This document shows positions 24,946-64,000 of a stretch of 64,000 nt of DNA, in pieces. The notes under the pieces are model-generated. The model did no database searches, was not told the DNA's origin, and worked only from the letters and a program-made list of their open reading frames with translations. The stretch spans positions 70,280,144 through 70,344,143 of the forward strand of contig NC_081181.1 of assembly GCF_029867415.1 (NCBI RefSeq), written 5' to 3'. Numbering within the stretch: the stretch's first letter is position 1; every line of letters starts with the position of its first letter. Source of the stretch: Vicia villosa (Eukaryota > Streptophyta > Magnoliopsida > Fabales > Fabaceae). The position numbers and the translations under genes were made by a program.

Positions 24946-25670
24946 CCATGTGCAATGGGTGTGTTTATTTAAACTCAACATGGCAAAATCATGTGCAATG
25001 GGTGTTTAGAGTAGTGTTGAGTGTGTGTTGGAGGAGAGAGATGTTGAGAAAACTCAACACAATGTACACTGACGCAGGGGCGCATGTGGCAGCGGCTGAT
25101 TGGCTGGCCAGATTTTTATCCATTTAATACTTTGAACTCAATTATTTCGTTGCAAATTAATTTTTATTTATTTTATTTTTTACCAAAATTCATGATTTTT
25201 TTTTCTCTCTATAAATAGAGACTTGGTTCATTTGATTTGGACACAGAAAAAAAACCAAGTTTTTCACTATCTTAATCTTATTATTATCTTTCTATTAGTG
25301 TTTATTTTGAAGTTAAGCGTCTTTTTTTAGTGAAATGAATCCCAATAATCATTTTAACACTCAAAATTCTGCTAATTTTCCATTTAACCAAAATCCCAAC
25401 AATTTTCAAAATCCCAACTATTAAGTATTTATTATTTTAATTTAATTTTAATCGATAATTGTAATTTTATGTAATCATAAAAATAAAAATAAAATTTAAA
25501 TAAGAATATGAAAATAAAAAGTGGTGGGGTAGGGTGTTGAGTGAAAAACCATTGGAGAGGGTAAAAGTTGAATGGGTGTTGAGTTATTAGGTGGAAGAAA
25601 GAGAAAATGATGTAGAGTGTTGGAAGTTAAAAAAGTGGGTGTTGAGTGTTGAAACCATTGTACATATTGG
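24946..25670 (+). mobile_element. Harbinger-like transposon remnant with ORF stub
   Basis: The left side has CCATGTGCAATGGGTGT (repeated near 24990) and the right side ends ACCATTGTACATATTGG, an imperfect inverted repeat. Inside, ATG 25335 opens a short Asn/Phe/Pro-rich peptide (MNPNNHFNTQNSANFPFNQN...) ending after about 30 residues. It resembles the N-terminus of the Myb/NAM-associated protein carried by plant PIF/Harbinger elements. Most of the element is deleted. A TATA-like TCTATAAATAGAG lies at about 25208. Family assignment is tentative and no 3-bp target duplication was confirmed. Confidence 0.5.
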
Positions 25671-26489
25671 GTTTGTACTTTGTAGTTGTACATTGCAGTA
25701 CCGTACGTCATTGCCAAGTGTTTTCTTTTACGAACTTCACGCAACATATTTTTGTAATATAATAATATTTTGCCTTTTTTTAATTTATTTTTATAAAATA
25801 TGGTATTTGTTATTGGTACAACAATAATACCGTTGAGCTTACAATTTCTTTAATTGTTTATATATATTTTAATGTTAAACGAAGGTTCCAGTAAGTTTCA
25901 TTGAATAATTTGATCAATGTCAATTTATCCAGTCATGAACATCGATAGCTAACCAAACATTTGATTCAGTCACGATATATGTTCATTGTAAAATAATGTT
26001 TCATCTTCTGTTTAATTAGTACAAGTACTTCTATGTATACTACACAATAATTTAGTACAATAATTTTCTTACACGTTTGTCAAATTATATTACATTATAT
26101 ACTATTATTTATAAAGGAGTAATATTAACTTTCTCTATGTTATTTAGGCATTTAAATATATATTTTTTAGATTTCAACTTTAAAATGTAAAAACTATGTA
26201 GTGTTTGTTGTTAGTTAATTAATTTTAGAATATTTATAAGTCGGTTAATATGTTGTTAGGTAGTTATAACTAATTTTACATGTGATTATGATTGATGTTA
26301 TATGTGGTTATTACTAGTTCTGACATATAGTTGGAATTACGAATTATGAGCAAGCATTAAGCTTAGAACAAAAATACAAGTTTGCAAGCGACAAATTTAT
26401 CATATAAATATATAATTTTTACATTTTATTATGATTAAAGATAACATTGACGGACACTCTCAAATACGTTTAAATACATAAAAAGAAAT
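25671..26489. other. AT-rich spacer, nothing recognised
   Basis: There are no convincing ORFs, repeats or element ends. Confidence 0.5.
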
Positions 26490-30995: not shown

Positions 30996-31261
30996 GATGC
31001 CCCTATTTAAGTTTCTTCTATCCGGAGATGTGAGGGTTAAAATCCTCAGCTCGACGTTATTGAAGAGACTTAAATATAAAACACACAGTTTTTGAACCTA
31101 AGGTATGATGTGATGCTAATGGATGCATCAAGTATGATTATGGAATAGAGGGAAATATAACACCATTGGGGAGATAAGAAAGGACTCCTCTGGGGAAAAG
31201 GTATGTGTCATCCAGGAATAAAACTTTGGACTTCACAGGAGAAAGAGACAGTCAACAGAAG

Positions 31262-32176
31262 CTTTCAAGAGTAAAACATGAAAGGAACTCTGGACAGAAA
31301 ATCAACAGAGATATTCAGAAAGAAAGATCTCTGGAACCCACATCAAAAATCATTCAAGAGTAAAACATGAACGAGTTTGGAAAGGAAGGATAAATCAACA
31401 GAGACATCCACAAGAAGCGATGGATGAAACTGGAAACCCACATCAAAGACATTCGAGAGTAAAACGGGAATGAATTTGGAAAGGAAGATGCATCAACAGA
31501 AGCAATCAAGAGTAAAACATGATTGAACAGCATCATAGACAATCAAGAATAAAACATGATTGAATAACATCAAGAGTAAAACATGATTGGCGAACATCAG
31601 GGACAATCAAGACTAAAACATGATTGGACAACAACATATACAATCAAGAATAAAACATGATTGAATAACATCAAGCGCAATCAAGAGTAAAACATGATTC
31701 GCGAACATCAGGGACAATCAAGACTAAAACATGATTGGACAGCAACATAGACAATCAAGAATAAAACATGATTGAATAACATCAAGCGCAATCAAGAGTA
31801 AAACATGATTGGCGAACATCAGGGACAATCAATACTAAAACATGATTGGACAGCAACATAGACAATCAAGAATAAAAGATGATTGAATAACATCAAGCGC
31901 AATCAAGAGTAAAACATGATTGGCGAACATCAGGGACAATCAAGAGTAAAACATGATTGGCCAACATCAAGGGCAACCAAGAGTAAAACATGATTGAATA
32001 ACATCAGAGACAATCAAGACTAAAACATGATTGAATAACATCAGAGACAATCAAGACTAAAACATGATTGAATAATATCAAGCGCAATCAAGAGTAAAAC
32101 ATGATTGAGCAGCATCAAGGGTAATCAAGAGTAAAACATGATTGGGCTCAGAGACATTCAAGAATGACATTGAATG
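31262..32176. repeat. Tandem hairpin array, 37-bp units in a 111-bp higher-order repeat
   Basis: Most units read CAATCA-AGAGTAAAACA-TGATTG, a 6-bp stem around an 11-nt loop. Units at 31674, 31785 and 31896 (AGCGCAA) show a 111-bp period, i.e. three 37-bp units. The edges carry other stems with the same loop: CTTTCA/TGAAAG (31262-31284), CATTC/GAATG (31450-31472) and CATTCA/TGAATG (32155-32176). Position next to the 3' LTR fits the known tendency of Tat-lineage 3' UTRs to generate tandem repeats. Confidence 0.9.
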
Positions 32177-34229
32177 AGGTGAAAACACTTTAATGGGGAT
32201 TATGACATCCATAGTAGCTTTGGATAAAAGGTGAGAAAGTTCTGGAAAATCATCAGAACAAGCAAGACATATCCGGGAGAACATCGGATAGACAGAGACA
32301 AGCTTTACCAAAAGGATAAATCTGTTTTGGTAGGTGCCAAGTAAGTTGGACTTTGATCTCAAGGTAAGATGTTGATAGCAACAGGACCTCGGAAAATGTA
32401 AATGAGCATGAATTTTGTTTCAATGCATGATGTTGAATTTTTCTATGCATGATATATGATCAATGCAATGCAATTGTGTGTGACAACTAAGGGAGACTCT
32501 TTTGTGAGGCAAGATTGGGACTCTGATTCCTCAACACGGGAACTCTGCCAACTCTGCTTGGGAAGAAGATGGTTAAACAAACTTCTATCATATTGGTAAT
32601 TGTATCAAACTGACGATCCTTTTGGTATGGACTGATAAATTGCTTGGGGAATGCTGAAGAAGATTGCCCCTGATTCATTAATTGTTGCAAGTTAACTGAT
32701 CATGGCTTCAGCTGAACGGTACTGAGGATGAACTGGTCATGGCTTCAATTCTTGAAATGCATGTTGGGATGGCTTGCCCCAGTATAAGTCTTGAAAGGAT
32801 ATTCTGATCAACAAATCTTGAACTGAACATCTTAATCAACAGGATCTTGAAGTAACGTGCCCTTGATAGGATCACTGATCAAGTTTCTCAACTGTTTGAA
32901 CTTCCTGAAAGATGAGTGCTTACTTGAAAATAAAATGTTCATTCAAGAATGGTAATTTTAATGCAATGCTCAAAACATATTTTTGAAATCAAAATCAATA
33001 TTGGAATGATGTTATTGATGTAAAGCAAATGGAATCACTGGTAAAAACACAAAGGTTAAGACATTCAAAGTGAAAGATAAAGAAAAGGCATGATATCAAA
33101 ACAAATGATTGGCAAATCTCATGGGAGTCAGCTTACGCAACCTTGTTGTAGTATGCTTTCAAACAAACCTTGCTTCAATTAGGTCTTCTAAAGGTTATAA
33201 CGTGGCCTGGTTCACGGTTTCAGAAACAAAGGATATAAGGCTCAAAAATTTTGTAACCCACCCCATATTCGTGGTGATCTCCAGTCCTACACTCAGTTAA
33301 TTCAACTTATGCATTCAGGTTCCAAGAGACTTTTGGAATTGCACCTTTGATAATGATGATGGTTCACAAGCAAAGAGAACTTTTGAGATGGCAGTCACTT
33401 CTCCCTTTTTATGATCACAACATTTTGTTGTTTGAGGATTTATTGACTTCTCTCTTTTTTTTGATCTTTTTCTTTTTATATCCCTAACTTTTGCCTGAAC
33501 TGTTTATTTTGAACTTACAGTCAGCGGGATGCCCCTTTTTTTGCCTAAGTCATCTTTTTTGGTTTTGACTTAGCAGGCTTTTCTTTGATTCTATTTTTTT
33601 GATACATACATTTTTTTTTATAAAGATAGTGAATGCCTTGCTTAGTGATTAATGAACCATCATTAGCTTTTGATTGACATCTCCAACACTTCCTTGATGT
33701 ATGCGGAGGAAAACTTGTAATTGAAACCTTTATTGAAAGTTGTATTGAATGATTCTCTTAAAATAGAATGCACAGCCAAATTTACTAAGAACTACCGTGC
33801 CCCGGGTTAAAAAATGCGGGTTTTTTCATACAGAAAGAAACTCCAACTTCGAAGGCTCAAAGGGGTTGACGAGGGATTAACTTCCTTATTTCTCCAGTGT
33901 TTGGGAATTGAAACAATGCCTGTACATCATCAACAAAGTTTTGTTTGAAAGCATACATTTCAACAACTTGGGTATTTTGTTGTCATCATCCTCCCTCCAA
34001 TCTTTGCATAAAACACAAATTTGAAATAGAAAGAAAATGGAAGAAAAAGTTTTGTAAAAGAAAGCATAAGCATAAACATAGTAGATGAAAATGAATTCAA
34101 AATATGCAATGCTCATTTCATTAAAATCACCATTCAGAAACAAACAAAGTCTAAAAGTAAACAGCACAATAAAGGAAATACAAACAGTACAGAAACAAGG
34201 GCCTAGTGACTAATCAGCAACAAGGATGA

Positions 34230-34497: not shown

Positions 34498-37400
34498 TGT
34501 CATACCCCAAATTTTGACCCTAAGATCATATATCATTCATATCCCAATCATTAATCAAGAGCTTCACTTGGAAGTTTTGTTTGTGGTGTTGCACTCACCT
34601 CATCAATAAGAGGGACCGTCAAGCACCAATGATTGTTTATCTTGTATGCATATTATACTAACCCAAATACCAAAAATATTGCTTTGTTTCTTTGTAGGCT
34701 TTTGTTTTGTAGGTACCAAGCCAAGACATGAAATAAACAAGGCATTTTCCACATTTTGGACTGATGAAATCGATTTCCCTCTTGGGTAAATCGATTTCCC
34801 TACAGCAATTTTCAACAAAATCACATTCTGGACAGCATGAAATCGATTTCCCTCCTGGGTAAATCGATTTCCCTAGTGTATTTTGCGCCAAATTCTCTTC
34901 TGGAACAGAGTGAAATCGATTTCACTCCTGGGGGAAATCGATTTCCTTAAGGCGAAATTCAAAAAAAATAGAGAGGGAAGCTTGATTTGATTTTGGCACC
35001 TATTTTCTTTGAACATTTTTGTCATTTTACCAATTTTCCACCTCACCAAAATAATTCCCTTCATTAATTCCATTTTAACCTCATTTTACCATTTTTTACC
35101 ATTCAAATGCCACTTTAATCACCAATTAAACACAAGTTAATTAACCAAGAGCAAATGACCAAATTGCCACTACTCTTGCTCTCATCCTATAAATAGAGGC
35201 CACTACTCTCTCATTTCTCAAGCTTGGAGAGCCAAAAAATTGCTTGCAAATTCATTTCTCACCCTTTCCAAAACCCTCACCCAAAGTTCATTTTCATAAG
35301 ATTAGTGAGATTCACATTGAATCTTGCTAATTTTGAACTAAACCTCCTACATTTCTCTCTTTTCTTTGGTTGTTCATCTCCAAATTTGAAGGATCTATAC
35401 ACTTTGTGCTTGCTCTTGAAGCTACTCCAAGACTTTTGTTCAAGAAGTGGTAATTTGCTAGATCCACGATGTAGATCTTTATTGCTTGTGTTCAATGCAT
35501 CTTTGATGCTATATTGATGATATTTGCTGGTTTTGTGATGGAAATTTCGTGCTCAAGTTGATGTGTGATCATAAGGTGTTTGTATATTTGTTCAAATCAA
35601 GTTTCATGCCTTTAAATGATGTTTTTGCTGAAATTTGCACTGATGAAATCGATTTCCTTAAGGCTGAAATCGATTTCATGCTGTACGTAACCTGTTTTTT
35701 TTTTTGAAAACTGCACTATGGAAATCGATTTCCCCTGCATGAAATCGATTTCCTGCTGGCAGAATGTGGTTTTTTGCCTTTTTTATGCTTGTTTTGGCTT
35801 TCTTCTTCCTCCATTTCATTAATATCATTGGATCTAGGATGTTGATAGGTTTGAAATGACCAAATCCATAATATTAGATGAATGATATTAATGATAGTGT
35901 GAGTTGATTTTACTTTATGCATTTTATTTTCTTCTTCTCTTTTTTTTTTTCTTTTTGATTGATGAAAGTCTTAATACTTTGAGAATTCTTATGGATTCTT
36001 AGTAAAGACTAGATCGTTACCTATTTTCTTTTCGTGCGGTATTGCTTTCGGAGAATGATCTACATATCATTTCACTCGCATGCATTAGCACATAAAGTTT
36101 TGACCGGCTCGTTGTAGGGTGATTTCTACATAAATCACTTGGCGATCTGCTTAACATAGCGCAATATTTCGTGTTCCGAATAAAAAAGATCAAATATGGA
36201 AGAGAATTGTATGCGGTTGATTTAAGACTTATGGAGGTTTATCGTGTAGTCGCTATGATTTTATCAAGCTTCTGATAAAGTTCCATTGAATTTAAATCCG
36301 AGAACATCCTTCACTCACCATCGATCTTTCTTACTAACTTTGATAACATACTTGACAAGTTTCAAGATGGTTATCTAGAACATCCTGCACTTTACTATAC
36401 CGTTCTTTATATTTCTCGCTTTATTGCTTTATTTTATCATTTCATCATATTTACATTCCACTATTTTTCTCTTTGTCCATTTGGACATATGTTTATGTTT
36501 CCGCTATTTTCTCTTTGTCCACTTGGACCATACTTTACTTTTATGCTAAAACACTAATAAATAACAAAAATCTAAAAAAACTCTTAAGGCTCTTTTGGAC
36601 TATTGGTTACTATCCCGAGCATTTTGGAGATTCGGACTTATGGACTTAGGACCTCTGGACCCTTATTCTGTTATTACTCTGTGATTGTTCTGTCTGTCTG
36701 GCATTGGATTGTTGTCTGTTTGTGTATGCAGGTATTTCCTTGAAAGCCCTTGATGGTTAATTCCAAGGCATTGATATAAGGATTTTACCCGAAAACAGCC
36801 GTTACTCTGCCCGATTTTTGTCAGAATTTTAATGTGCTTAATGCAAAGTGGTGCTAAGACAATAAGTTCATCTGGATCCCCAAGTGATAATGTTGGTTTA
36901 GTATTGATATTCCAAAGGAAGGGAAATCTACCTTGACTCACAATGTCAAGTGTTGGCTTCTTATTTCGGTTAGACCGTTCTTTTCCTTAGCTTTTATTTT
37001 ACGCAATAGGATAGCCTCTTCATCTCCTCCCACTTCTTAAATTTTCAAAATCTTCTCCCTTTTTCAAAATATTCTTATGTTTGCAAATCTTTTCAAAACC
37101 TTTTTCTTAAAAAATATCTTTTGCCCTTAGTGGCCTTTTCTTCGAAAGTTTAGACACTATTAATCGTCGAAACGAGTGGTTATACCCCACGATTTTGAAA
37201 TTGATTGATATAATGAGATCTTTTCCGCGTGAGAGAGCTAGTGGCATACTTGTTGATTTTATCCGAGTTGGAGCCTTTCTTTCATTTGCGATGCAAAGAA
37301 CTCATTTGTTCTCATGCTCAAGATCAATGGCTGAGTATTTCTCTCCAACGACGATAAAGTGTTTATTCGTTTTTAAAACGTTTTTCCCTTTAAGCGGAAC

Positions 37401-37748
37401 TACATTAGCTCTGACTTCTCCATTGCACCGAGGAGATATGTAGGCACAAAGCTTAACGCTTTGCCGAGCTTATTTTAAAAATAAAACAAACCGTTTTTTA
37501 GCACACACACGACACAGATTTTCAAAAAGGTTCCTGTGGAATACCACAAATATGAGGGGTGCTTAAAACCTTCCCCTTGTATAATCAACACCCAAACCTG
37601 AGTTCTCTTTCTTGTTTTAAAAACAAAACTTTGGGTTTTACGTTCTTTTCCCTTTTCCTTTGAAAAAAATAAAGCGCGGTGGCGATTTCAAAAGAAATAT
37701 TGAGTCGAGTCAATTCCATGGCTTCGATATCAGATTTTCCCCGCTATA
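34498..37748 (+). mobile_element. R4: 3.25-kb solo LTR (Tat/Ogre-like) inserted in R3 gag
   Basis: It begins TGTCATACCCC and ends TTTTCCCCGCTATA (the canonical end CTACA is changed at one base). The flanks are GTTGT at 34493-34497 and 37749-37753, a perfect 5-bp target duplication. The LTR lies opposite to R3 and splits its gag. It is the same family as the R3 LTRs. TATA is at 35187-35196, ten GAAATCGATTTC palindromes in five pairs surround it, and a stem-loop lies at 37555-37577. No internal sequence is left, so it arose by LTR-LTR recombination. Confidence 0.93.
35187..35196 (+). promoter_or_regulatory. TATA box of solo LTR R4
   Basis: CTATAAATAG, followed by AGGCCACTACTCTCTCATTT. About 690 bp of U3 lie upstream and 2.55 kb of transcribed LTR downstream. 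It corresponds to the minus-strand box at 30483-30492. Confidence 0.75.
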
Positions 37749-37753
37749 GTTGT

Positions 37754-39166
37754 GATCAATCCCTTTTGAACCAATGCGGGATACAATTCAGTGTAAGTCA
37801 TAGGAATAGGATCAAAGTGAGTCATATCGCGGTTCTGATTCTGATTAGCAACCCGAGGTTGAGGAACTTGAACTTGCACAGGAGCGACAGCGGCTACATA
37901 AGGTTGATCACCATTTTGAGGTCTACGACGAGATCCCCTTCTGTCATTTGACACAACATTAGTCTCATTCTCTTTCTTCTTGTGGAAGTTTCCATAAGGT
38001 TTCTTCTATCCACCAGAAGATTCAGCAACATGAGTAACTTTCCTATTCTTGATTCCCTCTTCAAGTCTCTGACTAATGGTAACCAAGTCTGTGAAGTTTG
38101 AAGATACACTATCAATCATCTTCTCCCAAAAGAAAGGTGAGAGAGTGTCCATAAACATGCCAGTCAATTCCTTTTCAGCTAAAGGTGGCTCCACTTGAGA
38201 AGCTAGCTCTCTCCAGCGTTGAGCGTACTCCTCGAAAGATTCTTTCTCTTTTTGAGACATGCTTTGCAGTTGTCGGTGATCAGGTGCCATGTCCAAATTA
38301 TACTTATATTGTTTCATGAAAGCATCAGTCAGATTTTGGAAGCAATGAATGTGACTCTTCTCAAGCCCCATATACCATTTTAGCGAAGCTCCACTCAAAC
38401 TATCCTGAAATCAATGGATAAGCAATTTATCATTCTGGGTATAAGCAGCCATCATGCGATAGTACATGGTAAAATGGCTTCTTGGGCAAGTGTTCCCTTT
38501 ATATTTCTCAAACTCAGGAGTCTTGAATTTTGCAGGCATGACAAAATTGGAAACCAAACACATATTCTCAGCAGCAACCCCAAAGTAATCATTTCCTTCC
38601 ATGGCTCTCAGGCGCTTTTCTAAAGTATGATACTGCTCTTTGACATCTTCAATATCTCCAGCATCTCCTTGACTTCCATTCTAGGAACGGGCAACTTGAT
38701 ATTCAATCAGAGGATTCACATAAGTAGGCTGAGCAACAGTGTGCACAATAGGCTGAGATTCAGCCATGATAGGAGCACGAAAAAATTGGTTTGAAGCTTG
38801 ACCAATCACAAGTTGTGAAGATTGACCAATACCAGGAGTCTTCTCATAGGGAGGAGTGTAACCAGGTGGCAAACCAAACTCAGGCCATGTAGAAGGTGGT
38901 TTTTGAGTAGGTTGAGGGTCAACATCAGCACTTGAGACTTCAACAATGACAGTCTTCTGAGGCGGTTCTCCTCTAGCAATCAAAACTTGCAGCATTTCAG
39001 TTAGCTTGGTCATGCCTGACTTTAATTCATCAATTTCCATTCTGACCTCTGTATTGTGTTGCTCTTGGTATTCCATTCTCAATCTGACGTTGGCTCTAGT
39101 TCCGTACTTGTGTGGAGGAATCAGCTTGACGGTAGACAGACAAACTCTGAAGAGGGAGACAAACAA
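37754..39166 (-). pseudogene. R3 gag (matrix/capsid part), interrupted
   Basis: Open pieces in order (minus) are 38681-39166 (MTKLTEMLQVLIARGEPPQK, then a Pro-rich linker WPEFGLPPGYTPP), 38411-38602 (VMPAKFKTPEFEKYKG) and 38006-38398, the Retrotrans_gag capsid domain (SGASLKWYMGLEKSH, QYKYNLDMAPDHRQLQ, SFEEYAQRWRELASQVEPPL). After 38006 come KKKENETN and DRRGSRRRPQNGDQ, a basic linker, up to TELYPALVQKGLI at about 37755, where the solo LTR R4 interrupts it. The rest is at 34230-34492. At least two stops or frameshifts are present. With no pol in R3, this is a gag-only, non-autonomous element. Confidence 0.85.
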
Positions 39167-42955: not shown

Positions 42956-42974
42956 TTGGCACGCCCAGTGGGAC
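42956..42974 (+). promoter_or_regulatory. R5 primer-binding site
   Basis: TTGGCACGCCCAGTGGGAC starts two bases after the LTR end and is conserved, with changes, in R1 (5226). It looks like a Tat-type site; the tRNA was not identified. Confidence 0.65.
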
Positions 42975-51018: not shown

Positions 51019-51801
51019 CTAGGGAAACATGGGCAAGCTTTCCGCCTCGAACATGTCCATGGATCCAGAGTTACGCATCCTCCTTACTATTCCCTTTTTG
51101 AGGAATATGTAAGATAAGAGCCTTCCATATGGAAGACACGTTATGACCCCTTGACGAGCAGCAGCCATAGAAACTGCTTCAACAAGCCCTTTGAAAATCA
51201 TTAAAGGGAAGTTGATTTTCTTCCCACGGAGGGCACAGAGGATAAATTCCAAATCCTTCACCATGATGCTGTTTTGATCATGGTTTCGTGGATGAAAGTT
51301 TCCCACGAGGAGTTGATGCCAAACCCTAATGACCTTGGCGCTGAAAGGATCGTTATCCATGAGAGTCCTCAACGAAAGATGAGTAGTCATGTTGAAGCTA
51401 TTGTCATCAAAAGTCTCACCAGAGTTATTGCATCTCATCAGGTTAGAGATGGTGGAGGGAGTGATTCTAATGTGGGCACTTCGAACCTCAGAGACTATAG
51501 TGGTTCTGCCTTCCGGATTTATGCGTAGAGACGCAAACATCCAAAAGTCTGCTAACATGTTGGGATAAACAGGTCCCTCTAGGATTTCATAGTAGAAATC
51601 AAGTTCTTGGTTAGCAAAAAGGGCACTGATGCTTATGAAGTTTTCCTCAAGTTCTTCTTCAGAGAGTTTGAACTCCTTTTTTATGCAAGCCCTAATGTTA
51701 TTGTAAGTGAGGGGTAGTGCCATGTGGAGAAGAAAAGTTTGAAAAGGGTTTTTCTGACTGTGTTTGAGAGAATGCAAGAAGAGAAACGAAGTTTTGGACA
51801 A
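51019..51801 (-). CDS. R5 antisense ORF 1 (putative plant transposon protein domain)
   Basis: A 260-residue open frame runs opposite to pol, 240 bp downstream of it. It has no stop, although the polyprotein has four. A likely internal start is MALPLTYNNIRACIKKEFKL. The body has SALFANQELDFYYEILEGPV and HIRITPSTISNLMRCNN, similar in style to the 'putative plant transposon protein' domain found in antisense ORFs of Tat-lineage retrotransposons. Function is unknown; nuclear or RNA-related roles have been proposed for the class. It ends DMFEAESLPMFP. An upstream extension of about 26 residues may not be translated. Confidence 0.7.
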   Translation of the reverse strand: MSKTSFLFLHSLKHSQKNPFQTFLLHMALPLTYNNIRACIKKEFKLSEEELEENFISISALFANQELDFYYEILEGPVYPNMLADFWMFASLRINPEGRTTIVSEVRSAHIRITPSTISNLMRCNNSGETFDDNSFNMTTHLSLRTLMDNDPFSAKVIRVWHQLLVGNFHPRNHDQNSIMVKDLEFILCALRGKKINFPLMIFKGLVEAVSMAAARQGVITCLPYGRLLSYIFLKKGIVRRMRNSGSMDMFEAESLPMFP

Positions 51802-52316
51802 GAGTTTTGAAGCAAGCGTGAAGAAAGAAGTATAATGCTAATCCTTTATATAGACCTGGGGCAATAAAGGAACGGTTCAATTTTAATGATTGATTAGACT
51901 GCGTTTGGTATTCCAAAGAGAAGTTATGGCTTCCGCCGTTTCCCGCCCTTGGAAGTTGAGATGTAATCATGAATAACTGGTGCACGCACGTCTCAAAGAG
52001 ACGTTTTGAAGAAAGTGACGTCATCACTTAATGATGGTTACAGCTAAGGGAGTAGAAATGTCAAGTCTAGGCTAAAAGGGTTGCGAAGGATAGTCAGGTC
52101 ACGTGCTTACATTTATTAAGATTACTGTGGCAATAAAAATATATTTTGGCAAGCTTTGAAGAATTGCTAGAGTGCTACTCATGACCATTGCAAAATGAAA
52201 TAAGTGGGTAAATTGACAGATAAAGTTGCACGTATATAGATTCTTGGAGAAACTGACTACAAAACAAAGAAAAGATAAGTGCGCAGCACAAAAAGAGAGT
52301 ACAAGGTTCGAAGCAA

Positions 52317-52769
52317 CTAATTAAAATCCCTAGGAAGATTATCTTTTATCTTCGAATCTTGAGTTTTCCACGAAGACATACGAAGATCAAGCAATGCCCG
52401 TTGTCTCTTTAGTTCTTCAATTTCTTGCACTAGCTTCTGTGCAGCCTCGAAGTGTTGGATCACTGACTGCGCCACTTCAGTTAATTCCTGCTGATTGGTT
52501 TGCTGAATTGTTGCCTGACGAGACTCAGCCTCCTTTATCTTCTCTTCGAGCATTTTAATTTCCTGTTTCCAAGACTTGATATTCTTTTCACATTCGTCAT
52601 ACACTTCTTGATTCTTCAAGCGCTTTAGCTTAAGGGCGTCACCCTTTTTGGTTGCATCAGTAGCAGCTTTCCATGAAGAACTATGAGAAGCCATCTTCGC
52701 AGTGAGTTGTTCGTAAACATTTTGCTTCCGAAGAATGTTAGACTGAAGTTGTTCGATTAGAGAGCTTAG
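52317..52769 (-). pseudogene. R5 antisense ORF 2, coiled-coil, cut by R6
   Basis: The minus strand reads about 150 residues from the R6 boundary: SSLIEQLQSNILRKQNVYEQ and SWKQEIKMLEEKIKEAESRQ, then AAQKLVQEIEELKRQRALLD and the end NLPRDFN. The Glu/Lys/Gln/Leu heptads predict a long coiled coil. It lies upstream (minus sense) of antisense ORF 1. The open frame runs on beyond 52769 to 52925, but that part is R6 LTR sequence, so the true N-terminus is lost. Confidence 0.72.
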
Positions 52770-53451
52770 TGTCGCTACCGCGAAAAATGGAATCAGAGTC
52801 GCCACTAATATATTCATCCCATCGCGGGAAAGGAATATCAGAAACCTAACTCGAAACAAGACCAAGGTCTTTCGACCAGAGAATAGGGCACGGGAGTCGG
52901 TTACGCAAGGGGAAGGTGCTAGCACCCCTCACGCCCATCGTACTCGATGGTATCCACCTATGTTTGTTTCTATCTAAAGGGTGTATCTAATGTCTAAACC
53001 TAAATGCGAATGAATGCAAAAGAAATACGGGGAAAAGAAGGATTATTTACAAGTGTGCTCGCTTAGGCCCCGCGACCCAATGCCTACGTATCCCTTAAAA
53101 GGAATCAGAGCGACCGTAGTTCGGCTCAATAGTTTCCATTTGTTTTGTGTTTTTTAGTTGAACAGAGGTTAAGGTCACAATCCACGATGCTCGACCTTTG
53201 GAGACTTATACGCCTAGTTTTGGAAAGGACTTAACTTGTTCTTAAGCGCCTAACAAGGCAAAAGAATGAACTTGGGTTTGTGTTTTTTATGTAACTACAT
53301 GATGAACAAAACCCAATACAAGGTTTCGCACCACTTCGTCACTTTGTTTTAATTCGAGCCTTTATTAAATGTTTTAAATGTTTTTGGTTGGGTATTTTTT
53401 AAGGGGATTTACTTTGCGATTTGAATCACATAAAAATGTATAATGATCGAG

Positions 53452-53705
53452 AAGCAGATTAGGGAATGAATCCCACTCACTTCTATCCCATTATATAATG
53501 TTCAAGAAACAGATTAGGGAATGAATCCCACTCATTTCTATCCCATTAATTAATGTTTGAGAAACAGATTAGGGAATGAATCCCACTCATTTCTCTCCCA
53601 TTAAGTAGTTACCGAGAAACAGATTAGGGAATGAATCCCACTCATTTCTATGCCACTAAGTGATTGAGAAACAGATTAGGGAATGAATCCCACTCATTTC
53701 TCTAT
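53452..53705. repeat. Minisatellite in R6 LTR, five units of nested hairpin
   Basis: Five units of about 47-64 bp share CAGATTAGGGAATGAATCCC and ACTCATTTCT. Each unit holds GGGA-ATGAA-TCCC inside an outer AGAAA...TTTCT pair. The first unit has AGAAG...CTTCT instead, a compensated change. Confidence 0.9.
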
Positions 53706-55492
53706 CACTTTCTTAATGTGATTCGCATCTTTATTCATTAGTGTTTTAATGTTGAAAAAGAAAAAGAATGAACAAAGGGGAACTAACCTATTCTCTAATC
53801 TAAGTTATTCTAATTCCTACTTCTAATTCTAAAGGGAGCATTAAAATGGTATTAACAAAGTAGGCCAAAAATATGGCCAAAAGCAAGTAACAAAAATCAC
53901 ATGACAATTACACAAAAATGACATGGAAATAGTACAAAAGCAATTCAAGCATTAGTGCGAAATTAAACTAAAAAATACTACTATTTTTATGGGTTTTTGC
54001 ATGAAGGAGAATTGAAAGGATTAATGTCAAACTTAACCTAAAATCTACTATTTTTATGAGTTTTTTATTGTCAACAAGGGAAATCTAATTCAAGTCTAAA
54101 TTGTATTAAAAACCTAAATTCTAATAAGCCTAAACTAGTATTCTTTTATTGTTTATTTTATGTCATTTTTATTACCTAAAAATCTAACAAATTTAATGGT
54201 GATTATCTTGTGAAAATGAACCTAAATCTACAAATTTTAATGGAGATTATTACCTAAAGTCTAACGAAGTGTGGGTTTTTTACCATACTTTTATTAACTA
54301 AATGTGCTAGAAAACAAACTAGTTATTAACTAAATCTAATGCCTAAAATCAAGCACACAGGGGGGTGAAAACTATAAGCAATGATGCAGGGAGTAATAAG
54401 GGCGCAGGCCCACGCGGTTATGGCCCAAAGTTGTTTTTGTACAAATTCTATGAAGTGCCAAAAATGGCACAGCACTGGGCCTCAGGGGGAGTGTAATGAG
54501 TAATTCGGGCCCAAGAGATTGTTTCCGTTTGATCCATTGTTGTTATTCACCATCATCCAGAATTCGTTTTTTATTGATTTTCATGAAAAGAAGAATTAAT
54601 TTAATAATTAAATAAAAGATGATAATCAAATTGGGAATTAGGGTTCAGTATGTGACCGTTCGTCTATCTCAGACTCATCTCACTCTCGTCTCTTTCGCTC
54701 AAACACGACGGCGTCGAGCAGCGGCCGGATTCTCCCTTCCTTCTTCTCCGTTCAGATTCGCCGCAAGCACCACCGTAACGGTGCTCTGTTCATCACCACA
54801 GATGTTGTCCTCTCAACTTAACCTCAGCTCCGACTCGAATCCTCCTTTCTCTCGATTCCGTTTTCATCTTTCTCCGATCCAACCAATTATTGCCCCGATT
54901 TGTCTTTCTCGGTCTCTATCGACTCAAACTCTCAAGCTCAATCTTTAATCTGATTCAGCACATGCTAGCCAACGAAGAATGACTCGCTCCATGTAATGTC
55001 TTCAGCCTCTCTTCTTCCTCGATTCGAACTTCTACTTTTCTCAGTCGAATCTTCGCGTGTTGCTCTTCAAGGTGCAGCGGTGTTGCTGCGATGATTGATG
55101 AAGATTTGATGCGAAGGGGACGATTTGCGAAGAAGGTGGAAGGAGAACTAAAGAATTGTGTTGATTTCTGTTTATCGATTTCAGTTTGTGATTTCCTCTT
55201 CTATGTTTTCTGCAGAATTCTCTGGTGAATCCAATGGAGGAATCTTGGCATGGAGAATTGAAGATGTGAGATTATGGATTGGAGATGGTTATGGTGAATG
55301 AAGGGGATTGGAGATGCTGATGAAGATGAGAGAAGAAAATGGTGGGGAATGGAAGAAGTTTCAGAGAGAAGAGAGAATGAAGATGATGAGGGTGATGATG
55401 AAGGGTGAGAAGTGGAGAAGGTGATTGAAAGTGAAGATTGGTGAGCAAGAGGAAGTGAAGGAGGTGATGAATGAAGGGCTCTGTTTATATAG

Positions 55493-55502
55493 AGGTTTGA
55501 AG
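55493..55502 (-). promoter_or_regulatory. TATA box of R6 LTR
   Basis: CTATATAAAC on the minus strand, followed by AGAGCCCTTC. It fits the minus sense set by the polypurine tract and leaves about 2.7 kb of transcribed LTR. Confidence 0.65.
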
Positions 55503-57059
55503 GTGGTTATCTGAAGGTAAGTCTCATTCCCTTTCTTCTTTTTTCTGTTGAATTCAGCTAGATTCTGTTAGTTAGTTAGGAGTTTGTTAGAGATTCTGTT
55601 TGACAATTATGTTAGTTGAAGGTTTAGAAGTTGGGATAAGAAAGTTAGTTACATGCTGAAAGTTTGTTAGATTCTGGTTAGAAAGTTCATAACTGATTTT
55701 GGAAGGTTGTTATGGTTCAGTTAAAAACGGTTAGGAAAGTAACTGAATCAGTTAGGTACAGTTAGTAAAAGGTTAAGGTTGTTAGAAGGGCAGTTATAGG
55801 GCAGTTTGAATGGTTAGAGGCAGTTAAAAGGGAGAAGCTGGAGGCTTTGTTAATTATACAGGGTGGTTTGCTATTGTATTGATTATGCAGGTTTTGTTTG
55901 AATGGTTTTGAAGGATTGGCTGAATGTTATGAAACTGTGAGCGAACCGTATGGTGAAGATGTGTGCATAGCTTAGATTATATTGAAGATTCTGATTTAGG
56001 TACAGATACATGATGTGGGAGTGGTTATTAGTGAATGTATTTGAATGCTGGTTTTGGTTTATATTGACTGCACTTGTTTTATGACTCAATTTACATGTTG
56101 TTTGGATAGGTTTGGGAACTTGTCAAGTCAAAAGATAGGCTGCAGCAAGTGTATTGGTGCGGAGACGCAACTAGTGTAATCGCACGGCTCATGGTGTATT
56201 TGGAACGACACAGAAATGGGCTAAACTATGAAGCTTGAAGATTGGGGAGAAAGAATATGCTTGAAGTTTTGAAGTTTAGTATAGAAATGTAACTAATTGA
56301 CTTTGTAATGAGACTTTTTCCTCTTTTTTGTATTGAATTGGATTGGAAGGGAACATTGAACAAGTAGATGATTCTCCTTGTAAAGTAATATGATATATAT
56401 ATACATATGGTTCTTGAAACTTGTAAATGGATGGTTACTCATAGCATGTTACGGTTTCTCTTCCCCAAAATTGAGACTTTAATTCCTTCTCCCTCCTTGT
56501 GTTTCCACTTTAATTTTACTTGTGATTTCACAGCCAAAAATTCTGAAGAAAAAATGCCCCGCACTTGAAATGATTCACGAAGTTCCACATAACTTTGATT
56601 CTTGTATGCAATCCCGAGTGACCGAGTGAGTTTGACCTTCGAATTAATGATAAGGAAATCTAGATAGATCCCTAATTCATCTGATGATTGTAAGCATAAT
56701 GACATGAAGCCCAGAACCTACACTCAAAAAGACCCTTTGATCGCCACAAGAAATAGGGAAATAAACTCTAATTCCACAGTTCAATGCTCATAAATACTTC
56801 GGTGAGAATAGCCTTGTAGCTTGAGAAGACAAAAGTTCATGATGAATGACCATATCAAAAATCTACTTCCACAACCCATGCTTCGAATGAGAACCAGATG
56901 ATCCAAGCTTATTTGATATGTACGTCTCAAACCAATGCAAAAACTTTGATTAATGAATGCATGAGTTATGTTAATGCCCTAGTGGAAAGATGATGCATAT
57001 GAAATGAGAAGTTTAAGCCAGTTAGAAATAAATATGTGGGCAAATTTTGGGGTGCAACA

Positions 57060-60000
57060 GCTGCCCCTATTCAATCTTCTTGAACCTGAATGTACGAACA
57101 ATACCAGTTCTGGACATTTGAGGTGTAAGTGGATTGAATACCCAACAGTACCATCAAAATTTGCGCTCTGGAGTAACAACTCTGAAGAGATACTTGTAAT
57201 TGTGATTTCGAATGAGGACATCAGTTACTATTGACTCCAAACAAGGGATACTATCAAACGCTTGACATAAACAAGAAACGCCAGTCAACTACTGGACCTT
57301 TGCCGATAACAACCGGACTTTGGAGGAAAGGACTAATAACAATCAGACCTAACCGAAGGATGCCTGTCACTACAGGACTTTGAAGGAAAGGGCTAGTAAC
57401 CACTAGACTCGACCAAGGGATGCCTGTAACCACAGGACTTTTGCTGGTAACAACCAGACTTTGAAGGAAAGCACTAATAACAATCAGACCTAACCAAAGA
57501 TGCCTGTAACCACAGGACTTTAAAGGAACAAACTAGTAACAACTAGAACTGACCAAAGGATGCCTGTAACAACAGGACTTTAAGGAAAAGGCTAGTAACC
57601 ACTAGACTCAACCAAAGGGTGCCTATAACCATAGGACTTTTACTGGTAACAACCAGATTTTGAAAGATGCCTGTAACAACAGGACTTTAAGGAAAAGGCT
57701 AGTAACCACTAGACTCAACCAAAGGGTGCCTATAACCATAGGACTTTTACTGGTAACAACCAGATTTTGAAAGATGCCTGTAACAACGGGACTTTAAAGG
57801 AACAGACTAGTAACAACTAGAACTGACCAAAGGATGCCTGTAACAACAGGACTTTTGCTGGTAACAACCAGAATTTGAAGGATGCCCATAACCATGGGAC
57901 TTTTGAAAGAGATGCCAATAATTATTGGACTTAACTGAATCCCACAGGCCAAAAGGCGGGGTGTAACTCTTCAAGAGTAGCGATCGTTCGAATTGCCACA
58001 CACAAAGTGTGGGTTATCCAAACGATTGAGCTCTGCAAACGGAAAATAACCAAAGAAGGTAATGATCTTGACAAAGAAAGACTTTGTATCCAGTCCGCAC
58101 TGGAGGGAGAAAGAAAGATTTCTTTTGGGGATATGTTACTTTGTGCCTTGGAATCACATACGAACTTGGCCTATGCATTGATGCATGTTTGAATTTTTCC
58201 ATGGCGTAATGCTCCATATTCATGGAAATGCTACGCATTTTTGTAGATGCGATGTGAATGCAATGAAACTATATGCAAAGCGCCAAATAAAGGCGTTGGT
58301 GTGATAGAGAGCAGAATCATTGGGGTCCCTTCAGGGAATATTCCATTATCTTTTTAATCGAATATCATCTTTGACCTCGGGCGAGATAAACACCAGGGAG
58401 AATTCCCTTAGAGTTGAAAACTCTGTGGGGATGCCAATCTTTCAAGATACCCCTTCTGGTTATTGACTTGCGAAGCAAAGCGTAACTTCTGACTTCTCAC
58501 CTTGTGCCATTGCTTGGAGAATTTTTCAACTTGGGGCGGTTCCCTCTTTCCACCATGGTGGGGATTAGAAATCCAGATAAGGAACCACGGTTTGGAGAAG
58601 CGGAACAACTCCTAGGAGAAATAAACTCCTATGCTCGGGGAATGGAACAAACTCTTAGGAGAAATAAACTCCTATACTCGGGGGGAGATTTTCAGGGAGA
58701 AACAAACTCCTATGCTAGGGGAGAGAGTAACTTGCTGGGGAAGAGCATTATGATACTTCTCCATTATGTGATGGTCAACTGCACTTTACACGTGAATGAC
58801 AGTTCTTCAATACAAACTGAAAGATTATGCCCCAGGCTTCTTGACCTACGAAGATATTTGCCTCGAAAGGATCCTTACACCATGCTTACTTAAGGTAATT
58901 CTGCCCCAACATACTCATACATTTGAAAAAGTCCCTCCTGATCAACGAATCCTTGAAGAGATTTGTTGAATCTCGACGTAACTGCCCCAGATTGAGTGAG
59001 CTTGAGAGATTCCTCGACGTCACTACCTCATATTGATTGAAATCAAGAGAGAGATTCCTCGACTTGATTAACCCTGATTGGTCGAATTTGAGATGTCAAA
59101 CCTTGATTTGCTTGCCCCATATGGGATGAACTCACGAGAGAGATTCCTCGTCGTGACTATTTCTAATTATGTACATCTTATCGGAATCCTTGAGTTTTAC
59201 TTCCCTTAAGATCCCACAAATCGTGGAAGTAACTTTACCACACTCAATAGAGTTTTCAAAACCTTCAGGGTAATCAATCAAAGAGAGTATCCACTGCTCA
59301 TGCTCAATAGAGTATTCAGACTTCTCCCCCCAGGGTAACCAATCAAAGAAGGTATAAACTCATTATGCTCACTGGAGTCTTCAGACAACATGCCCCTTGA
59401 TATCAATTTCTGAAATGACTTCTTTTTTTCTCTACGGAGTTCTCAAGTCTCTTTTACTTTAACATGATAAAGCTCTTCATGGATTCTCATCATGGAAACT
59501 TCCTTGATGTTTAAGCAAATGTTTTTTATGCAAAAGAATGTTAATTATGATAATGTCAATCCTAATTCAAAGCCTATGCTAGTCTTGAAGCTTACACAAC
59601 TTTTTATAAAATGAGGTTGCAACCTCTTGTGAATGAAAGATAAAGCGAGCATACGATACCAACATATATATATGTGTTACGCTTCATTGGGAGTCAGTAA
59701 ACACTATCTCATGGGAGCGCGTCTTCGAAATAAACCCTACTTCAATTAGGACTTTTAAGGGTTGTAACTTGGTCTGGTTCATGGTTTTCAGAAACAAAGG
59801 ATTTTTAGGCTCAAAATTATTTGGTGCCCACCCTCTTCATGATGTCCTCCATTCTTAAGTTCAATTAACTCAACATGAGTGTCCATCTCTCACAAGGAAT
59901 TTTTTTTGAAACGGTTGAGGAATCAATGAGGTTTTTCGGACATGGCAGTCGCTCACCTTTTATTCTTTTGATTCATTATCACACGACTTTGTTCTTGCTT

Positions 60001-61618
60001 TATTTTCACCATCATTTTTCTTTTTATTGCTATATTCTTTTCTTACATTTTTTTTCATCATTTTTTCTTTTATTTTTTTTTTGAACAAGTCGTGTAACCT
60101 CGCATTGTCTTCAATTCGTTGGAAGTGATTGCGATTGCCTCATTCCATGATTGATGAAGGATTACCATTGTGGCATCGTCATCTTTTATCCTCTTGGCGG
60201 GTGAAGGGTAACCATCACGGTTTTGACTTTCCTCAACCTTTTGAAGGATAACCATTGTTGTATCCTTAGATACATACCCTTTATGAGTTTTGAACATTTG
60301 ATCAAGTTAAATGAACACTACCCTGCCCCTGGGTTAAAAAATAAGGGTTTTTTCTGATTAGAAAAGAAACTCCTACTTCAAGGCTCAAAGGGGTTAACGA
60401 GGGTCTATCTCCCTTATATCTCCAGTGTTTGGGGATTTGAAACAATGCCTGTACATCATCAGCAGGATTTTATTCAAAAACACACAATTAGGGATTTTGC
60501 ATTTTTTTTATTGTCATCATTCTCCCTCCGCTCTTTGCCTAAGCAAGAGATTAATAAAGTTGGTATCGTAATGCCAAAACCTTTTTTTTTTTGAGTGAAA
60601 ACGAATGGATTACTTCAAGACAAACATAAACAATGCATTATGATTTTCATTCAGAAATTAACAAATTTTTACATGCTAGAAATGCTTAAACAAACAATGA
60701 AACGTTACAAATGAGAATGCAATAAAGAACTAAATGAATGCCCTTGTTGAGGAGACTTGACTCCGTCTGGACTTATTGCTCTTGAATGCTTTTTTCAGTT
60801 TTGATACCCCATTGAGACTTCAACTTGTGCATAGGACCTCTTGGAGTGGATTGTGGTTATTCCGAAATCAACGAGGACTTGAATTCTGCCTTTGAATGTC
60901 CTACCACCTTCAGTTGAATGGCTAGGTGCCCCAGCATGGTAGCCACTTAACATTATCATATGTTTCTTCCACACACTTTAGATTACTTCCCAGAAGAATA
61001 TTCCAACAAGGGCGTACAAGAGTGGTGCATTTTTGCCTTACTTTAGGGATTCGAGCAATGCAAATGATGCAATACTCAAGATAGACAATGTCTTGCTTAT
61101 CCCTCGGTCGGGAGCCCCAAATATAGATGCTAGAACAGTAATCACCATAATAAATGGAAGAAGCTAGTATGATCATCAAACTCAGGAGAGCTATATGTGG
61201 TAAGGAAGACCCACAACACAAATCTTAACCAACTGAGATTCTAACCAACAGGGAAGTAATTGAGCACAAGGCATTACGTCATTTTGTTTCCCATATTCTT
61301 TATTTCTTTGTTGACGAGCAAAGGCCACTGAGAAGAAAATTCCGGGAAGATATGACCCATGACATGAAGCAACAGCCTGAGAATGAGAAACGCCTCTGCA
61401 GAACACTCTTGATTATCACATGGCAAAAGATTCCGAAAGAGTCACACAAGAACTTGTAATGCTTTTAAGGGGTTCGAGCAATGCAAATGGTGCAGTGCTC
61501 AAGACCAGAATACGTCTTGCTTATCCCTCGGTCGGGAGCCCCAAGCAACTTCCACATATGTACAAGAGATGATTACCACTTTGGCTTCAATATCCAAACC
61601 ATTTGGAGTGAGAGTAAG
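57060..61618 (-). other. R6 3' untranslated region
   Basis: About 4.5 kb between gag and the 3' LTR. From the LTR outward it holds the polypurine tract, a hairpin array (57281-57925), three units around AGGAGAAATAAACTCCT (58610-58710, also a hairpin) and repeated GAGAGATTCCTCGAC words (58960-59150). Blocks conserved with R3 lie at 59680-59870 and 60310-60470. Finally there is a 75-bp direct repeat (61046-61120 and 61469-61544, sharing TCTTGCTTATCCCTCGGTCG). No ORF looks real. Confidence 0.7.
57281..57925. repeat. Tandem array of mini-hairpins with covarying stems
   Basis: About 20 units of the form N5-AAC(C/A)-N5' recur every 25-50 bp. Examples: CCTGT-AACC-ACAGG, CTAGT-AACA-ACTAG, CTGGT-AACA-ACCAG, CCTAT-AACC-ATAGG, CCCAT-AACC-ATGGG and CCAAT-AATT-ATTGG. 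A higher-order period of 107 bp is seen at 57559 and 57666. It lies 220 bp from the 3' LTR of R6, the same position as the R3 array, but has a different sequence. Confidence 0.92.
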
Positions 61619-62050
61619 TCACCCTTGCATTTTTTTTTTTACATCAGGCACTAGGCACAATCCAAAGATGTCTAAATCAACGGAGTCACAATCTTTTATG
61701 GCTTTCAACCTTTTCTCCAAGAGATGGAATCTTTTGTCAATTTCAGTAATCGGAAACTTGAAGATTTCCATTCCCAAATTTTTCTTATGATGTGGAGCCT
61801 CTTTAACAGTAATAGGAACCTCAACACACTTCAGACACTCTAATTCATAAGAACTTCTCATGTGTGAGATTAACATTTGCATTTGGCCTCTGAAGAAACT
61901 GTTCTCAAATCCTTTTGTCTAAGAGAAAAGGCTTGAATAACCTTCATACACAGATTTTTGTCAGTCCCCACTTCTGTTCTTATCTCAGTCAAAACCTCAC
62001 GGAGTTGTCCCATTATTAACTTTCAAGCGCGTAGCGGGGAGAAGTCAGAT
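61619..62050 (-). pseudogene. R6 gag N-terminal fragment
   Basis: The minus strand reads from about 62010 (MGQLREVLTEI-like) through ECLKCVEVPIT to ITEIDKRFHLLEKRLKAIKD and FGLCLVPDVKKK. This is the region before the capsid domain in R3-type gag (compare EKRLRAM..NDYFGVAAENMCLV at about 38560-38620, minus). The capsid itself and any pol are missing. Several stops are present. Confidence 0.6.
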
Positions 62051-62603
62051 TTTGTAGTTGAAGTTAGAACTTGAGTAGAAAGGGCCCTCATAAACTTCTG
62101 ATAGAACTATGAAATGCATGATAATGTGAATGCATGTTCCATTTATGGGGAATCCTAAAGACTCTTCATACTTTTTCTCTTTTATTCCCTTTTTTTTTTT
62201 GCATCTAGTATCTTTTTTTCTTCTCCATCTTTTCTGTTTTTCTACCTTTTTTTGTTTCCTCTTTCTTTTCCTTTTTTTTTTGAATGAGACTTTAGGATCC
62301 CCCACAAATGAAGTGAATAAAGTGATAATGTTATGCAATGCAAAAGCATGGGATCAAGGTCCATATAATCTTAGTAACCACTGTACAATCCTTTGAATAA
62401 CTGATGTAGGTCAGATGTCATGAGATCAAAGTTCCGACACTTTTTGAATACCAGGAGAACCAATAGTCACCAACAGAATAGAATAGTCACCAACGGTACC
62501 TGTCATGTATATCCCACCCCACTCACAGGTGAATCTAGGTCAAGGTAGGTCAAAAAGGTCTCCAGCGTTAACAACTCTCCTGAAACACCATCATTGTTGC
62601 AAA
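62051..62603 (-). other. R6 internal leader, no gene seen
   Basis: Pyrimidine-rich runs (62165-62285) create a spurious Lys-rich reading on the minus strand. TCACCAACAGAATAGAATAG-type short repeats lie at 62465-62495. It is cut at 62604 by the R7 LTR (flank GCAAA). Confidence 0.5.
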
Positions 62604-64000
62604 TGTAACACCCCATATTTTCTAAATTTAATTTAATTGGAAATTAAATTATTATTTGGAATTATTCAGTATTTTGTGGAATTATTTGGAAAGAAATATG
62701 AGATAGGCTATTGGGCCAAGTGTGGTGTTAGTAAAGAGGGGGGGGGGGGTGCTATGTTAGTAAAAGGTCTTGTTCCAATTAAGGCTTATTTTATAAAATA
62801 ATAAGGAAAATTGGAAAATGAGGAAAAAGGAGTCAGAACGTGAAAGATGAGAAGTGGAAGAGAAGAGCTGAGGAACGTAAAGAGGAAACAAGGAGGAGAG
62901 GACCAAAGATCAAGAACTCTTGGCTAAGGTAAGGGGGGACTCTCTGGTTATCATCTATTATCGTGTTCTTAGATAATAATATTGATTAGGGATGTTGTTG
63001 AGTCAATTGGGTCATATGTTAGGTTTAGGGAGGTTATGAATTGATGAAAATTGCAATGGATTATTGGTTGATTATGTGTTGTTTTGATGTGTGATGATGA
63101 ATAATGATGCAATTGATGATTAGCTGCCTGTATATGATGTTTAGAGTCAGTGTTGGACTCAAATTGAGTCAAATCGCAGGTCTGACGCAGACCCGAAAAT
63201 CTATGAAATCGCCAGTTCGCGCCGCGTCCTAGTGTTGGCGCCGCGAAGGCGTACTTTTCCTCGCATCGCGCCGCGTCCATGAGTTGGCGCCGCGAACGTG
63301 TTGGTATGGCTTCAGGTCGCGCCGCGTAGTCTTGGTCGCGCCGCGTACTGTAGCGTTAGTTGTTTTCTTGGGAAAGTTAAATGATGTGTAACTTTCGAAC
63401 CGTAGGTCCGTTTTTAGTGTCGTTTCGAGCACGATGAATCTTATGAGATAACCTACGTGTTTAAATGATAAAATGAGGTGTGGATCCAATTATTTTTAAG
63501 TATGATTTTATTTCTTGGTGATTGATGTATTGTACATATAAGTGATGAGATATGTTAAAATACATGCTATGTGGAAATATTGGTCATGTGATGATTTGTT
63601 TAATTGGATGATATATTGTTGACATATATGATGACATGTGACAATATGAGTTGTTATTTTGAAAACATTATGATGTGATGATTTGTAGAGAATTGTATGA
63701 TGTTGATTGATTGTATTGGAATGATGTGGGTACATGTGTGTTCTTCTTATTGATGATGATGATTGATGTGGACACATGTATGTTCTTTAATGATGATGAT
63801 GATGATGATGATTGATTGTATTGAATGATGCTAATGTATATAAACATACTTTGATGATGATGATGTTAATGATGATGATGAAATGAGTATTTGATGATGT
63901 TACTCATTAGACTTGACGATGGTATAAGTATGTTGTATATGTTGCATTCATTCATGTGCATTGATGATACTGTATCCATAAGGGTGTGTTGGATCAGTGA
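62604..64000 (+). mobile_element. R7: Tekay-type LTR, plus sense, runs off the window
   Basis: It begins TGTAACACCCC. A GGCTAAGGTAAGGGG segment (about 62922) is the sense form of the CCTTACCTTAG seen in LTRs (a)-(c). It includes a run of 12 G (62738-62749), six GCGCCGCG words in three 19-bp-spaced pairs (63219-63345) and (GAT)n tracts (63750-63885). No LTR end is reached; whether an internal region follows is unknown. Confidence 0.72.
63750..63885. repeat. (GAT)n-rich microsatellites
   Basis: Several interrupted runs of TGA/GAT triplets lie within the R7 LTR. Confidence 0.9.

Follow-up and report, generated by a model that had tools for sequence, protein, structure and literature searches.

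A mini-hairpin array with covarying stems in a non-coding LTR retrotransposon of Vicia villosa: a possible multivalent RNA signal

Introduction

Do short hairpins whose stems change from unit to unit, and nevertheless stay paired, represent an RNA structure kept by selection, a trace of the copying process, or the common descent of a few units? The question is raised by a tandem array in a stretch of Vicia villosa DNA 64,000 nucleotides long ("the window" below). The original prediction described about 20 mini-hairpins at 57281..57925, placed them in the 3' UTR of a retroelement, and proposed either selection of the RNA hairpins or their correction by strand switching during reverse transcription.

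Macas et al. (2009) are said to have described hypervariable 3' UTR tandem repeats in Tat/Ogre LTR retrotransposons. According to a part of PMC7004042, legumes commonly have tandem repeats close to the 3' ends of their Tat/Ogre-type elements, and new satellite DNA arises from these; a part of PMC3305785 states that the function of the soybean repeats, if any, is unknown.

Methods

Genome-wide counts refer to an assembly of 2,034,964,285 bases in 1888 contigs. Copies were sought with a 301-base flank (40 of 1985 first-look candidates scored, 42 matches listed) and in a second flank search with a divergent copy (40 of 1979 first-look candidates scored). Array-targeted loci were fetched in four sets (14+20+17+10, i.e., 61); 6 near-identical tandem copies were dropped and the window was added. 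The unit counts leave out spacer sites with a TAACC core, recognised by their following context. The downstream LTR partner of the array-bearing element was read in the stretches L034 and L038.

The strand test proceeds from the consideration that selection on RNA tolerates G.U and does not tolerate A.C, while a process at the DNA level has no such preference. In the tree-based neutral null, alignment columns evolved independently, each with its own rate, on the tree of the units.

Results

The element that carries the array

The frames at 44-50.8 kb with gag-pol domains (Retrotrans_gag, RVT_1, RNase H, rve) are those of a host element, and placing the array in the 3' UTR of this gag-pol element (43-52.8 kb) was considered and rejected on account of the separate LTRs, TSD and PBS that surround the array (Table 1). 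These are the features of an LTR retrotransposon: direct LTRs of the TG...CA type with a short TSD, and a PBS and a PPT inside the LTRs. The two LTRs (4290 and 4292 bp) are 99.9% identical over 4292 aligned positions, with 2 mismatches and 2 gaps. On the minus strand, a PBS-like TGGCGACTCTGCTGGGGA stands two bases after one LTR, and a PPT-like GAATAGGGGCAGC stands just before the other. The positions of the PBS and PPT assign the element to the minus strand, so that the letters read are the reverse complement of its RNA. The array starts 221 bases inward from the 3' LTR of its own element.

When the array-bearing element is removed in silico, the two open stretches of the host antisense frame meet; the join was one base out of register, and it had omitted the last base of the duplication. 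The array-bearing element is inserted into the gag-pol element on the opposite strand. The strand and the element had therefore been misread in the original prediction; the location in a retroelement's 3' region stands once it is transferred from the gag-pol element to the 3' end of the internal region of this separate one. As to the host itself, its antisense ORF 51019-51837 (-) behind pol matches Transposase_32 weakly (E 4.5e-9; 36.9 bits against a curated cut-off of 45), and a PBS-like TTGGCACGCCCAGTGGGAC upstream of its gag-pol frames (42956-42974) differs from the PBS of the array-bearing element.

In the window copy of the array-bearing element, the longest frame at 57.06-62.6 kb has 135 aa and the longest near the PBS 166 aa; the stretch L032 (10 kb, reaching from one copy's array into the next copy's LTR) has no frame of at least 150 aa. 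Since neither has sizeable frames, we take the element to be a young non-coding LTR retrotransposon of the LARD type, with the long LTRs and the internal region lacking gag-pol that define this type. Like Ogre/Tat elements, it has tandem repeats shortly before its 3' LTR, their number varying between copies; the Ogre/Tat domains (gag, protease, RT-RH-aRH, INT) are not found, there being no sizeable frame in it, and for this reason its lineage is not assignable by RT.

Three further observations concern the structure of the element. The stretch 62604-64000 is repeated directly at window-equivalent 68034-69428 (L034:4034-5428; 99.86% identical, 2 gaps, no mismatches); the two are probably the LTRs of another young element that inserted into the array-bearing one. 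A head-to-tail tandem of the element is found at C1:127562700-127594499 (L031-L033), where three LTR starts at 127.57-127.59 Mb are spaced by 11,264 and 11,133 bases. Inside the LTR, positions 53439-53701 hold about 4.8 copies of a 55-bp repeat, which is matched in other copies of the element.

Table 1. Positions of the features in the window; L numbers denote fetched stretches with other copies
Feature	Position	Strand	Remarks
Antisense ORFs of the host gag-pol element, split by the insertion	51019..52769	-	listed frame 52317-52928 enters the LTR by chance
TSD CTTAG, left copy	52765..52769	.	right copy downstream of the window, window-equivalent 74892-74896
3' LTR of the array-bearing non-coding element	52770..57059	-	4290 bp, TG...CA; partner at window-equivalent 70600-74891
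PPT-like stretch adjoining the 3' LTR	57060..57076	-	minus strand GATTGAATAGGGGCAGC, then TGTTGC...
3' part of the non-coding internal region	57060..62604	-	longest listed frame 135 aa; broken at about 62604
Solitary unit GGAGT-AACA-ACTCT, outside the array	57170..57183	-	outer pair G.T on the + strand; AGAGT/ACTCT in L010, L021
Mini-hairpin array	57281..57928	-	stem of 5 bp; loop mainly of 4 nt, usually UGUU or GGUU in RNA
Array unit starts 1-12	57281, 57303, 57333, 57363, 57393, 57423, 57444, 57474, 57503, 57533, 57563, 57592	-	
Array unit starts 13-24	57622, 57643, 57670, 57699, 57729, 57750, 57777, 57807, 57837, 57858, 57885, 57915	-	
Flanking hairpin ACTCT-TCA-AGAGT	57966..57978	-	ACCCT/AGGGT in duplicated segments of L010, L013, L015, L019
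Flanking hairpin CCACAC-ACAAA-GTGTGG	57996..58012	-	G.U (RNA sense) in many other copies
Flanking hairpin ACAAAG-AAAGA-CTTTGT	58071..58087	-	
Flanking hairpin TCCAGT-CCGC-ACTGGA	58089..58104	-	compensated TCCAAT/ATTGGA in 4 copies; half-way forms in others
Flanking hairpin AAATGC-TAC-GCATTT	58226..58240	-	compensated AAACGC/GCGTTT in L020
Second hairpin array, loop AGANTAAAACA	31262..32176	-	stems CTTTCA, CATTCA, CATCCA, CAATCA; PPT-like boundary near 30996

The array in the window

A mechanical scan recovered 20 perfect 5-bp stems with loops of 4-5 nt at 57281-57928, and four imperfect units bring the total to 24. The feature is thus real and unusual, and the position and description first given for it are correct. 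The perfect stems have seven sequences (CCAGT, CCTGT, CTAGT, CTGGT, CCTAT, CCCAT, CCAAT), exactly those originally named, and the loop is AACA or AACC, as was also predicted, in 21 of the 24. The imperfect units are CCGAT/ACCGG, CTAAT/ATCAG (twice) and CCTGT/ACGGG; in the + strand reading, those at 57303, 57333 and 57474 have one A.C each and that at 57777 has one T.G.

Dinucleotide shuffling of the array, a null named with the original prediction, gave on average 1.5 and at most 7 perfect stems in 2000 shuffles, against the 20 observed. The bin 57001-58000 is the richest of the 64 1-kb bins of the window in stems of at least 5 bp (22 against 3.6 expected, z 13). Two other bins, 37001-38000 and 25001-26000, are also stem-rich (12 against 4.4 for stems of at least 5 bp; 8 against 2.4 for at least 6 bp). 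The folding energy of the array is low on the RNA strand (MFE z -5.6) and on the opposite strand (-4.8; 40 shuffles each), and in the fold of the whole array, long-range pairing between repeats competes with some of the hairpins. The array was rejected as a member of a known RNA family, as Rfam gave no match at the gathering threshold anywhere in the 64-kb window.

Tandem repeat analysis revealed higher-order duplications of 107 and 140 bp, owing to which the units are not independent; the duplication inflates their number, and the independent evidence is the variety of stems rather than the 20 units. Among the ten distinct arm pairs, 27 of the 30 inner pairs are Watson-Crick, against 13.4 expected with permuted 3' arms; this count was reached in none of 200000 permutations.

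Copies of the array and covariation of the stem

The exact unit CCTGTAACMACAGGACTTT occurs 1501 times in the genome (810 + 691), and its reversed control does not occur. Units are present in 50 of the 56 loci kept, all from the same genome, and total 1105: 862 are entirely Watson-Crick, 168 have G.U only (RNA sense), 34 have A.C only, and 41 are other. An array has from 2 to 64 units in the 50 fetched stretches, some arrays being truncated by the end of the stretch. Adjacent units have the same stem in only 1 of 968 pairs in the 50 arrays, while shuffling within arrays predicts 166.6. This rule may be simple inheritance, because exchange between like units preserves neighbours and because neighbours are often alike in the second family described below; no proof is drawn from it.

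In the commonest unit context (+ strand), the fourth pair is GC in 328 units, AT in 145, A.C in 13, G.T in 12 and C.C in 1, and the third is TA in 418, CG in 46, AT in 26, C.A in 6, T.G in 2 and T.T in 1. The two outer pairs, the closing pair and the first two bases of the loop are 98-99% constant in this context; the third loop base is 94% constant and the fourth is A or C in 498 of 509, while the inner stem holds its main base in 84% (position 3) and 68% (position 4). The two bases before the stem and the five after it are 97-99% constant, the more distant spacer is not. With units anchored on the seven known stems, the loop has 4 nt in 970 of 1003; among these 970, it is AACA or AACC in 872 and is closed by T-A in 951.

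Under the tree-based null for 372 distinct 30-mers, which is approximate (the tree comes from the same 30-mers, with a midpoint root and posterior site rates), the Watson-Crick fraction was on average 0.411 and at most 0.726, against 0.871 observed (0 of 300 simulations). In cells off the main pair the fraction is 0.676 with 0.24 expected, again 0 of 300; the number of pair types is ordinary, being reached in 16 of 300. Pairing is kept beyond permutation and beyond the neutral tree, and the prediction that it exceeds what duplication with random mutation would leave holds against this null.

A neutral history is a rival reading of these data. It assumes that a few hairpin types, arisen by chance or in old events, were multiplied by higher-order duplication, so that the covariation is descent. 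The 107- and 140-bp repeats agree with it, as do the many broken private units and the fact that three stems make up 721 of the 1105 units. It is opposed by the seven perfect stem types within one array and the outcomes of the arm permutation and the tree null, and also by the occurrence of both single-arm forms and the double form on differing loop backgrounds and in differing spacer contexts. The flanking hairpin at 58089, with its G-C, half-way and A-U forms, and a second family with the same design speak against it as well. We regard this history as already disfavoured and improbable.

Hairpins beside the array and a second family

Beside the array, positions 57931-59166 contain 9 stems of at least 6 bp against 3.05 expected (0 of 60 shuffles); no such excess was found in the LTR or in two stretches deeper in the internal region. 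The common variants of these hairpins, in the RNA sense, are G.U at 57996 and 58089 and A.C at 58071, 58226 and 57966; thus the five single-copy hairpins split, with no bias to G.U. Two further hairpins were discounted: that at 58410 is fully paired only in the window copy among the 13 rows shown, and that at 58110 is paired in 17 of 32 rows (18 with G.U) and not in divergent copies.

The second array of the window (Table 1), the strand of which was assigned from its PPT-like boundary, looks as if it lies in another LTR element. A genome-wide count of its open-stem pattern gave 1378 occurrences, against 0 for the control. Counted by eye, 75 of 100 listed places are Watson-Crick (58 CAATC, 13 CTTTC, 4 CATTC) and 25 are not (4 G.U, 3 A.C, 18 other). 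The adjoining stretch 32140-33140 is stem-rich (7 against 2.82, 0 of 60 shuffles); the other side is not clearly so (3 against 1.22, 5 of 60). UGUU begins both the most frequent RNA loop of the first family and the RNA loop of the second, which may be due to common descent.

Strand asymmetry and the rival mechanisms

The idea of the strand comparison was written down only after the orientation of the element was known, which should be kept in mind with the following count: with G.U allowed, 977 of 1041 units pair fully on the minus (PBS-defined) strand and 852 on the plus strand, 824 being all Watson-Crick. Haplotypes found in at least five loci comprise 7 wobble-only, 1 A.C-only and 5 Watson-Crick; those in two to four loci, 5 wobble-only and 8 A.C-only; those in one locus, 9 and 3.

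The asymmetry is concentrated in one class of units, denoted S/T (CCAAT, CTAAT and CCGAT types), which has 15 shared G.U contexts and no A.C-only context, and in which 116 of the 120 units with a non-Watson-Crick pair remain paired when read as RNA; the excess may descend from about three to five historical changes. Outside this class, shared contexts are 4 G.U and 2 A.C (Fisher p 0.68), and private (single-locus) contexts divide into 32 G.U and 30 A.C, with no strand bias. A strand-specific mutation bias was considered as the source of the G.U excess and rejected, none being seen in the private contexts or in the leader, where G>A variants number 12 shared and 9 single on 42 sites and C>T variants 10 and 5 on 35 sites; since neither has a clear strand bias, mutation by itself looks even-handed. 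The asymmetry leans towards selection on RNA, short of proof, because it rests on one unit class and few historical events.

The outcome that the original prediction named as counting against it, stem mutations left uncompensated in other copies at the neutral rate, was seen in part: of 472 private contexts, 65 do not pair in the RNA sense (30 A.C only, 35 other) and 407 do, while contexts common to at least two loci pair in 122 of 127. Unpaired private contexts are to be expected, as dead copies decay.

The two originally proposed causes are those that best survive. In the second of them, template-switch (quasipalindrome) correction, the polymerase copies one arm from the other during reverse transcription or DNA replication, and stems would be perfected again with no function of the RNA. 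It explains the nearly perfect Watson-Crick pairing, the flips of the third pair among TA, AT, GC and CG with no wobble step, and the flanking hairpins, whose sequences are unrelated. A part of PMC8794818 describes such correction in the hairpins of RNA genes, with 4-nt loops enriched in instantaneous compensations. However, no inverted loop with the four inner pairs intact was found inside 52 arrays (the single match, in L021, lies outside the array), mutations private to a copy often stay uncorrected, and S/T units persist with a non-Watson-Crick pair of the kind that RNA tolerates. Replacements of several bases in an arm are inseparable from descent in these arrays. We consider template switching a serious rival, if a somewhat unlikely one.

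The units could also act as DNA palindromes, i.e., as cruciforms, as dyads that bind a protein, or as pause sites favouring recombination and array growth. The variation in unit number among copies would fit, and such regions seed satellites in Lathyrus sativus (a part of PMC7004042). A dyad-binding protein, however, would fix the sequence of the arms, and it is the inner arms that vary; a wobble tolerance specific to one strand is not expected either. This explanation appears very improbable to us.

Discussion

The reading that we prefer, at a probability of roughly 0.48, is that the array may be a multivalent RNA-hairpin signal near the 3' end of the genomic RNA of a non-coding LTR retrotransposon, as its sequence pattern suggests. 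The hairpins would all display one small loop, in RNA usually UGUU or GGUU with a closing U-A pair, on stems that can be exchanged. As long as the element is active, a mutation that disrupts a stem would be lost or compensated; beyond this, the stem sequence would be free. To be copied, a non-coding element must rely on proteins supplied by another one, and many similar loops would most likely serve to bind a trans-acting protein multivalently, be it Gag/nucleocapsid or a protein of the host, with retention, packaging or dimerisation of the RNA as candidate roles. Unequal exchange or strand transfer among similar units would alter the number of hairpins, and the array would decay neutrally once inserted. 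We count in favour of this RNA reading that a second family of the same design with another loop is present in the window; we count against it that the third pair shows all four Watson-Crick pairs, including flips that are impossible via G.U.

It is tempting to go further and propose that, in legume non-coding retrotransposons, PPT-adjacent arrays with interchangeable stems are a packaging or dimerisation signal read by the Gag of another element, with neighbouring units kept different for separate folding. We hold this wider proposal to be rather unlikely; if true, the tandem repeats of the "hypervariable 3' UTR" would be fast-evolving RNA machines.

Dispersed packaging signals of retroviruses and phages consist of many small hairpins with a common loop motif and free stem sequence. 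The array resembles them in that its hairpins share a loop and vary in the stem; it differs in that its protein partner is a hypothetical one.

The array is probably a variant of the hypervariable 3' tandem repeats of Tat/Ogre-type elements. In common with these (parts of PMC7004042 and, for the Gmr9/GmOgre minisatellites, of PMC3305785), it consists of short, interleaved tandem repeats that separate the internal region from the 3' LTR in a legume, variable in length and monomer and with higher-order arrangements such as [ABAC]n. It differs in that its monomers are 20-30 bp long, each being a hairpin with a conserved loop and a changing stem. The part of the results and discussion of PMC3305785 concerned mentions no hairpin for such repeats; "palindrom" does not occur in the part of PMC7004042 that deals with them, nor do "hairpin", "stem" and "secondary structure" in a part of PMC11963269; and among the titles and abstracts listed by a literature search on hairpins in such repeats, none dealt with them.

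With LARDs, the element shares the long LTRs (4.29 kb here), the non-coding internal region and the assumed movement in trans. LARDs and TRIMs are said, in a part of PMC7215508, to specify well-conserved RNA structures; the LARD example Sukkula is a grass element, and no tandem array of covarying mini-hairpins is described in the portion of the source concerned. The hairpins produced by template switching, in the part of PMC8794818 cited above, are similar in their compensatory stem changes and conserved short loops, but are found in rRNA and microRNA genes, whereas here a retrotransposon array is concerned, without loop inversions in the arrays examined.

The covariation of the stems is a sign, at the level of the sequence, that at least one such array is either kept as an RNA structure or perfected again in copying. 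It would bear on how elements with no protein of their own are mobilised and on template switching as a force that shapes retrotransposon RNA.
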